Shown in pieces: positions 21,306 to 23,358 of a stretch of 64,000 nucleotides of DNA. Under the pieces are notes generated by a model. It ran no database searches. It had not been told where the DNA came from and worked only from the letters and a program-made list of their open reading frames with translations. Numbering within the stretch: position 1 is the first letter of the stretch; every line of letters begins with the position of its first letter. Origin of the DNA: Candidatus Moanabacter tarae (GTDB taxonomy: Bacteria > Verrucomicrobiota > Verrucomicrobiia > Opitutales > UBA2987); contig CP029803.1 of NCBI GenBank assembly GCA_003226295.1, forward strand, positions 230,226 through 294,225. The letters are read 5' to 3'. The translations under genes were made by a program, and so were the position numbers.

Positions 21306-22781
21306 ATGATCGCAACGGCGAGCGAGATATTAGAAATGAAGAAGACTCAGCTCTACATTAATGGAGAGTGGGTAGATGGAGAAGAAGGAACTACTTTTGG
21401 AGTCATTAACCCTGCTACGGAAGAGACGATTGTTGAAGTCTCATATGGGACAGCAGGGGATGCGAGACGGGCTTTGGAAGCTGCCCAGGCAGCACTTGCT
21501 GATTGGCGGGGAATGACTGTCTACGAAAGAGCTCTCCGGCTCAAGAAGATCGCGGATGCTATTCGCGAAAATATCGATTATCTGGCAGTAGCTCTGACTA
21601 TGGAGCAGGGGAAGCCGCTGGTGGAATCGCGTGCCGAAATGCTCGGTTCAGCTGGAACTTTTGAGTGGTTTGCTGAAGAGGCAAAGCGGGCCTATGGAAG
21701 AACGATTCCAGCAAGTTTCTCCCACAAGAGGCTTTTTACAGTACGCCATCCCGTCGGTGTGTGTGCTTCAGTATCTCCCTGGAACTTCCCTATTCTGCTA
21801 CAGGCGCGTAAGATCGCACCGGCTATGGCGGTTGGGTGCACCACAGTATCGCGTCCGTCCAGTCAGACGCCGCTTTCATTGATCCGGCTGTTCGAGCTTA
21901 TTGAGGATGTGGCCGACCTTCCGAAGGGGGTGGTTAATTTGGTGATGGGACCTCCAGCCGAAATCATGGAGGAGTTCATGAGTAATCGGATCTGCCGAAA
22001 AATTTCTTTCACTGGTTCAACGGAGGTGGGGAAAGACCTACTCAAACGATCTAGTGAACAGGTTAAGAGATTAAGTCTTGAATTAGGTGGCCACGCTCCA
22101 GTTCTAGTTTTTCCCGATGTCGATATCGAGGCGGCTGCAAAAGTCTCAGTTTTAGGGAAATTCCGCAATAACGGTCAGGTTTGTATCTGCCCGACTCGGT
22201 TCTATGCTGAAAAATCAATTGAGCAGGATTTTCTAGATGCTTGTGTAGAGGAGACGAAAAAAGTGAAATTAGGGAATGGACTTGAGGAAGAAGTAGACGT
22301 CGGGCCGATGTTCGAAGCGCGTGCACTGGATAAGACGGATGACTTAATTAAGGATGCATTAAGTAAAGGGGCTAATTGTATTCTCGGGGGTAGCCGATCC
22401 GAGAGATTTGATAAGGGCTACTTTTTCGAGCCAACAGTCCTCACTGGCATGCAGGATGACATGAAAATCATGACAGATGAACCATTCGCACCGGTTATGC
22501 CAATTCTCAGTTTCAATGAGATTGATGAAGCAATTGCTAAGGCCAATAACACTGACTTTGGTCTCGCAGCTTATGTACTGACCAATGATTTGACCGCGGC
22601 GATGAAATGTGCAGATGGATTGGAGTTTGGAACTATTGGGATCAACGACACGGTTCCGGCTACGCCCCAAGGGCCCTTTGGAGGACTTAAGGAGTCGGGT
22701 GTTGGTCGTGAAAACGGGATTGAGGGTCTTGATGCATACTTGGAAACCAAGTTTGTGTCGATGGCATTAAGGGAATCCTAA
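21306..22781 (+). CDS. NAD(P)-dependent aldehyde dehydrogenase
   Basis: The 491-residue protein is a full-length aldehyde dehydrogenase. PWNFP lies at 158-162, the general base is E259 in LELGGHAP, and the nucleophile is C293 in NNGQVCICPTR. The closest resemblance is to the succinate-semialdehyde/glycolaldehyde/lactaldehyde dehydrogenase group. The cofactor-binding Lys usually found in KPS/KPA is Arg here (SRPSSQTP), a conservative but uncommon change. GGAAGGA just upstream supports the ATG at 21306. It is a single gene, convergent with the DUF2237 gene, and its end faces the 66-bp palindrome. A role in oxidising an aldehyde released by a nearby aldolase is plausible. Confidence 0.9.
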   Translation: MIATASEILEMKKTQLYINGEWVDGEEGTTFGVINPATEETIVEVSYGTAGDARRALEAAQAALADWRGMTVYERALRLKKIADAIRENIDYLAVALTMEQGKPLVESRAEMLGSAGTFEWFAEEAKRAYGRTIPASFSHKRLFTVRHPVGVCASVSPWNFPILLQARKIAPAMAVGCTTVSRPSSQTPLSLIRLFELIEDVADLPKGVVNLVMGPPAEIMEEFMSNRICRKISFTGSTEVGKDLLKRSSEQVKRLSLELGGHAPVLVFPDVDIEAAAKVSVLGKFRNNGQVCICPTRFYAEKSIEQDFLDACVEETKKVKLGNGLEEEVDVGPMFEARALDKTDDLIKDALSKGANCILGGSRSERFDKGYFFEPTVLTGMQDDMKIMTDEPFAPVMPILSFNEIDEAIAKANNTDFGLAAYVLTNDLTAAMKCADGLEFGTIGINDTVPATPQGPFGGLKESGVGRENGIEGLDAYLETKFVSMALRES

Positions 22782-22930
22782 TTAGCTAGTATCTTCTTAT
22801 TTAGAAAAGGTTTTGATCGCAATACGAGAGAGTCACAAGTCCTGCCGGTAGTCTGTGTAGGTGTTGGGAATTCCCAGGCCTCGGATATCAGGTGTTTGGT
22901 GAGAACACTGATTTCTATGAGTAGACTCCT

Positions 22931-22996
22931 ATTGAGTTTGGATTTCTACCCCTTCTGTAGAAATTTCTACAGAAGGGGTAGAAATCCAAACTCAAT
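22931..22996. repeat. Perfect 66-bp palindrome with nested hairpins
   Basis: Positions 22931-22963 are the exact reverse complement of 22964-22996, with no spacer. Each arm itself contains TTTCTAC-N7-GTAGAAA (22943-22963 and 22964-22984). It lies between the convergent aldehyde dehydrogenase and DUF2237 genes and ends two bases before the latter's stop. Transcripts from either strand could form one 33-bp helix or two small stem-loops whose loops (CCCTTCT, AGAAGGG) are complementary. It may act as a bidirectional terminator or be a small palindromic repeat element. No T-tract follows. Confidence 0.9.
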
Positions 22997-22998
22997 CC

Positions 22999-23358
22999 TC
23001 ACGTCAGTGAGTATTTCGATAGGACATCAAGATCGACATATTCGAGAACAGAAATGTGGGTTGCTTCCAGATTGATTTTTGGTGCGTGATTATTCTGGTA
23101 CGCTTCAATCCATCGCCCCAGGCATATACACCAATGGTCGCCAGGGGAGAGCCCGGAAAATCCTAATTCTAGGTGTGGGGTGGAAAGATCATTGCCTTGG
23201 ATTTTGGAAAAATCGAGGAACTCCTGCGTCATTTCCGCACAGACTGTATGCATACCAACATCTTCGCCATTAGTATCGCATTTCCCGTTGCGGAAGAATC
23301 CCGTCAATGGATCCATGCAACAGTTGATTAGTTCGGTGCCAAGTACGTTTTGAGCCAT
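22999..23358 (-). CDS. DUF2237 family protein
   Basis: The 119-residue protein has the length and conserved segments of the DUF2237 (COG3651) family: NVLGTELINCCMDPLTGFFR at the start, GMHTVCAEMTQEFLDFSK, GNDLSTP, GLSPGDHWCICLGRW and LEATHISVLEYV at the end. The family is cytosolic and of unknown function, with conserved Cys and His that could bind metal. It is a single gene, convergent with the aldehyde dehydrogenase. Confidence 0.9.
   Translation of the reverse strand: MAQNVLGTELINCCMDPLTGFFRNGKCDTNGEDVGMHTVCAEMTQEFLDFSKIQGNDLSTPHLELGFSGLSPGDHWCICLGRWIEAYQNNHAPKINLEATHISVLEYVDLDVLSKYSLT

Follow-up and report, generated by a model that had tools for sequence, protein, structure and literature searches.

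A single-copy, spacerless 66-bp palindrome between convergent genes of Candidatus Moanabacter tarae is probably a local inverted duplication

Between two convergent genes in the 64-kb stretch of DNA analysed here (the window), positions 22931-22996 form a perfect 66-bp palindrome, a real and probably biological feature that was correctly described by an earlier sequence-only reading. It is likely a local inverted duplication produced by template switching during replication, and we also favour, with rather more reserve, the fuller reading in which a genuine, single-copy duplication, laid down between convergent genes by a template switch, would act as a hairpin at transcript 3' ends. The palindrome is not a mobile element, nor is it a terminator of the standard type. 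It represents an unusual form of a known kind, the local inverted duplication at the ends of genes: it is perfect and spacerless, lacks a U-tract and has counterparts of different sequence elsewhere in the genome. Long spacerless palindromes are unusual in bacteria, and they bear on how perfect gene-end hairpins originate. Several unrelated palindromes in one genome, one of them with a recognisable coding arm, may capture 3'-end hairpins soon after their birth. This makes two ideas testable, namely template switching as a source of hairpins at convergent gene ends and the absence of the hairpin nuclease SbcCD as a permitting factor.

The left arm (22931-22963, forward strand, ATTGAGTTTGGATTTCTACCCCTTCTGTAGAAA) and the right arm (22964-22996, forward strand, TTTCTACAGAAGGGGTAGAAATCCAAACTCAAT) are exact reverse complements of each other, giving 33+33 bp with 100 % complementarity and 0 nt between the arms, just as had been claimed. 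No other perfect hairpin in the window has arms that reach 12 bp, and 33 matching pairs within 64 kb are far beyond what chance can produce. At its centre lies a 14-bp palindrome, GTAGAAATTTCTAC (22957-22970, forward strand), read from the sequence itself, which we propose as the point of the template switch. As reported earlier, each half contains the motif TTTCTAC-N7-GTAGAAA, a small stem-loop with a 7-bp stem and a 7-nt loop; it occurs exactly twice, at 22943-22963 (forward strand) and as the mirror at 22964-22984, and a search allowing up to 2 mismatches gave 3 matches against 0.20 expected. The fully complementary loops are indeed present but constitute no independent feature, because a stem-loop in one arm forces its reverse complement in the other. 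The independent element is the 7-bp stem within one arm, which was found in 150 of 20000 shuffled arms (0.75 %) and is thus mildly unusual. In the left flank (window positions 22910-22925), GATTTCTATGAGTAGA resembles the start of the arm's small stem-loop (GATTTCTAC...GTAGA); this likeness could go back to an earlier local duplication or have arisen by chance.

An aldehyde dehydrogenase (ALDH) gene (21306-22781, forward strand; PF00171, 1.5e-161) converges on the palindrome from the left, and a DUF2237 gene (22999-23358, reverse strand; PF09996, 4.6e-51) does so from the right. The palindrome had been placed exactly between convergent genes and two bases from one stop codon; the convergence and the 2-bp distance to the DUF2237 stop (22999-23001) held, but the symmetry was overstated, the ALDH stop being 149 bp off. 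The DUF2237 domain is complete, and the gene has therefore not been cut into by the palindrome. The DUF2237 gene was missing from the three same-family genomes examined, which belong to another genus, and the DUF2237 loci in the order's other families were without a spacerless palindrome whose arms reach 12 bp. On a contig of a Saprospiraceae MAG, an unrelated perfect palindrome, likewise spacerless and with arms of 22 bp (L152:2595-2638), was seen about 1.7 kb from a DUF2237 gene.

Folding of the RNA from both strands with flanks yielded one 31-bp helix with a 4-nt loop, at -55.4 and -56.9 kcal/mol, compared with shuffle averages of -15.7 and -18.7 kcal/mol (z -14.3 and -11.3). The sequence-only reading had envisaged, for either strand, one helix or two kissing hairpins. 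The single helix was recovered, whereas the two-hairpin form reached only -10.0 kcal/mol against -53.2 kcal/mol for the helix without flanks; being about 43 kcal/mol less stable, kissing loops could therefore form only transiently during transcription or between two RNAs. When growing prefixes were folded, the first small hairpin appeared at 33-42 nt and gave way to the long helix from 45-48 nt onwards. The Rfam families matching the palindrome were only eukaryotic microRNA precursors and a snoRNA. The matches fell far short of the gathering scores and were similar for the two strands, as any long perfect hairpin attracts them.

The suggestion of a mobile palindromic element had to be given up. 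GTAG-type REP elements with RAYT transposases are likewise palindromic and located close to the 3' ends of genes, in many cases convergent ones (PMC3733652), and the palindrome does adjoin a gene 3' end as REPs often do. However, REPs measure 20-40 bp and exist as many related copies in a genome, whereas the palindrome occurs once in the 2.63-Mb single-contig genome. The half-arm was absent from GTDB contigs and from viral contigs, a plasmid search gave no match, and a pattern search of the other 372 genomes of the order returned no copy beyond one chance-level match with 2 mismatches, in G246 (the reversed control pattern gave three matches in other genomes). Phages gave no copy either, six weak matches (about 26 bp, E 0.2-0.7), including the left flank, being attributable to chance. 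Searches of the genome found neither a RAYT-type Y1 transposase (PF01797; 5 of 14 controls gave a signal) nor a telomere resolvase (PF16684), and a telomere resolution site or junction was rejected, the resolvase not having been found and the contig being uninterrupted at the palindrome. A mobile or repeated palindromic element, whether a REP, a MITE or a telomere junction, is accordingly hardly credible. REP-like palindromic families were observed in relatives, with hairpins of the CTGTAGGAGG type in G033 and of the TCAGCGATTA type in G022 (e.g. L064:17550-17626, L197:7916-7959), and nothing comparable was seen in the sampled part (48 %) of the present genome.

The count of perfect palindromes that lack a spacer and have arms of 12 bp or longer covered 1.26 Mb, or 48 % of the genome, including the 64-kb window, and for the gene-placement test the DUF2237 and HNH genes were added by hand to the called genes. 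Six such palindromes were found, against 0.08 expected from base composition, and all are unrelated in sequence. Four of the six lie in convergent gaps, which account for 3.5 % of the sampled DNA (P = 2.2e-5); the three longest (66, 60 and 32 bp) are all in such gaps (P = 4.4e-5), and the same is true of the two longest (66 and 60 bp) taken by themselves (P = 0.0012). Tandem and divergent gaps hold several times more DNA than convergent gaps. The placement test was prompted by the window palindrome, and fair weight therefore rests on the other five.

Among these, the second longest, of 60 bp (L057:9654-9713; genome positions 2049654-2049713), lies between the convergent glnD (forward strand) and an HNH endonuclease gene (reverse strand); it begins within the last glnD codons, finishes 1 bp before the HNH stop and is also single copy. 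The third, of 32 bp (L110:2334-2365), is again between convergent genes, and its right arm contains the 3' end of an alcohol dehydrogenase coding sequence. The fourth (L105:18934-18957) measures 24 bp and is located between two enolase-superfamily genes that run convergently. Relatives contained one spacerless palindrome against six in this genome in similar amounts of DNA (P = 0.045), a contrast that is weak; G080, which reads as N, was left out.

These palindromes also bear on the earlier suggestion of an inverted-duplication artefact, of which the duplication is retained as a biological event and the assembly artefact is disfavoured, because an independent 60-bp spacerless palindrome occupies a similar place in the genome. 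Sequencing libraries can contain fold-back artefacts, and one arm could in principle have been written twice by a fold-back error during library preparation or assembly. Such errors should land mostly in genes, which make up most of the DNA, whereas the two and the three longest palindromes are in convergent gaps; moreover, the contig runs on normally on both sides of the palindrome. We consider an artefact very unlikely.

A local inverted duplication can be read at glnD, the C-terminus of which can be aligned with relatives up to a point close to its end. One arm of the 60-bp palindrome is the coding 3' end of this gene and is old; the other arm is therefore the inverted copy. Both arms in the window are non-coding, and it is this sister case that offers a coding arm alignable to relatives. 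Perfect stems that arise in one event, through a template switch to the complementary or the nascent strand, are described (PMC8794818), and the hairpin mutations reported there share with the palindrome a neighbouring stretch copied as its reverse complement in one event, with a perfect stem as the outcome; here, the adjacent sequence is reproduced exactly as its reverse complement. Those cases were inferred on phylogenies, whereas the palindrome described here is spacerless and the relatives show no pre-duplication form of its locus. Simple self-snapback is excluded for a palindrome with zero spacer, because a hairpin needs a loop. Under template switching, a nascent strand with a small palindrome at its end (GTAGAAATTTCTAC in the window, the sequence around CAATTG in L057) would anneal to the complementary parental strand and would copy back, over about 33 nt in the window, giving a spacerless perfect palindrome in one event. 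The duplication would then be tolerated or kept at convergent gene ends.

The palindrome had further been proposed as a bidirectional terminator. Its position and its strong, symmetrical hairpin fit this proposal: a stable hairpin lies downstream of a stop codon, and in common with the bidirectional intrinsic terminators known between convergent genes (PMC1852404, PMC6060812) it is a gene-end inverted repeat able to serve both strands. It differs from them in having no U-tract, no spacer and arms of 33 bp. No U-tract directly follows the stem, the flanks being CCTCACGT on the forward strand and AGGAGTCT on the reverse strand, and with the tract missing on either strand the palindrome is therefore not a canonical intrinsic terminator. 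Its stem is also much longer than usual and AT-rich at the base, and the few ordinary hairpin-plus-U terminators of the genome look different. An ordinary bidirectional intrinsic (Rho-independent) terminator is thus improbable, although the genes converge and the hairpin is very stable whichever strand is transcribed; the palindrome may have a non-canonical 3'-end role. E. coli is reported to be poor in inverted repeats with arms of at least 13 and spacers of at most 8, and downstream of genes bacteria generally favour 4-bp spacers (PMC13155455). Strong 3' hairpins are rare in the present genome (10 of about 660 ends) and Rho is encoded, so that most termination is probably carried out by Rho. 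Two Rho-like genes were observed, at genome positions 1510470-1511711 and 2178392-2179504, one above and one below the curated cut-off.

If the palindrome acts at 3' ends, transcripts from either converging gene would acquire an identical hairpin, about 31 bp long and very stable. This hairpin would impede read-through into the opposing gene, perhaps alongside Rho, and/or shield RNA 3' ends. We regard such a function, as opposed to a neutral scar, as a tentative proposition that falls just short of an even call. The serious rival is that the identical inverted duplication is a functionless scar, tolerated in convergent gaps where nothing coding or regulatory is disturbed. This is possible, if somewhat doubtful. 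The lack of a U-tract agrees with it, as do the different sequence of every palindrome, the perfect arms, which are consistent with a recent event, and the lack of conservation at the one ortholog checked, glnD of G022, which has no hairpin downstream. Neutrality sits less well with the three longest palindromes all being in convergent gaps although tandem and divergent gaps cover more DNA, and with two palindromes extending into a coding 3' end.

A more far-reaching proposal, which we think unlikely, is that an ongoing process with a location bias operates in this lineage and deposits inverted copies of the 3' ends of genes, spacerless and between convergent genes, the palindromes serving as U-tract-free bidirectional transcription barriers that are tolerated as SbcCD is missing.

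The favoured reading, too, draws on the state of SbcCD. In E. coli, this nuclease makes a break at a long palindrome (as cited in PMC7999016). SbcD was not found in the genome by a search in which 13 of 14 controls gave a signal, and it is mostly missing in the order, exceeding the cut-off in 2 of 35 genomes; its absence may provide a permissive background for palindromes. Samples of 0.1-0.6 Mb per genome from relatives without SbcD yielded few spacerless palindromes or, mostly, none, and loss of SbcCD is therefore insufficient by itself. For SbcC, the sole match was weak and fell in a 1264-aa frame, as expected of an SMC protein.
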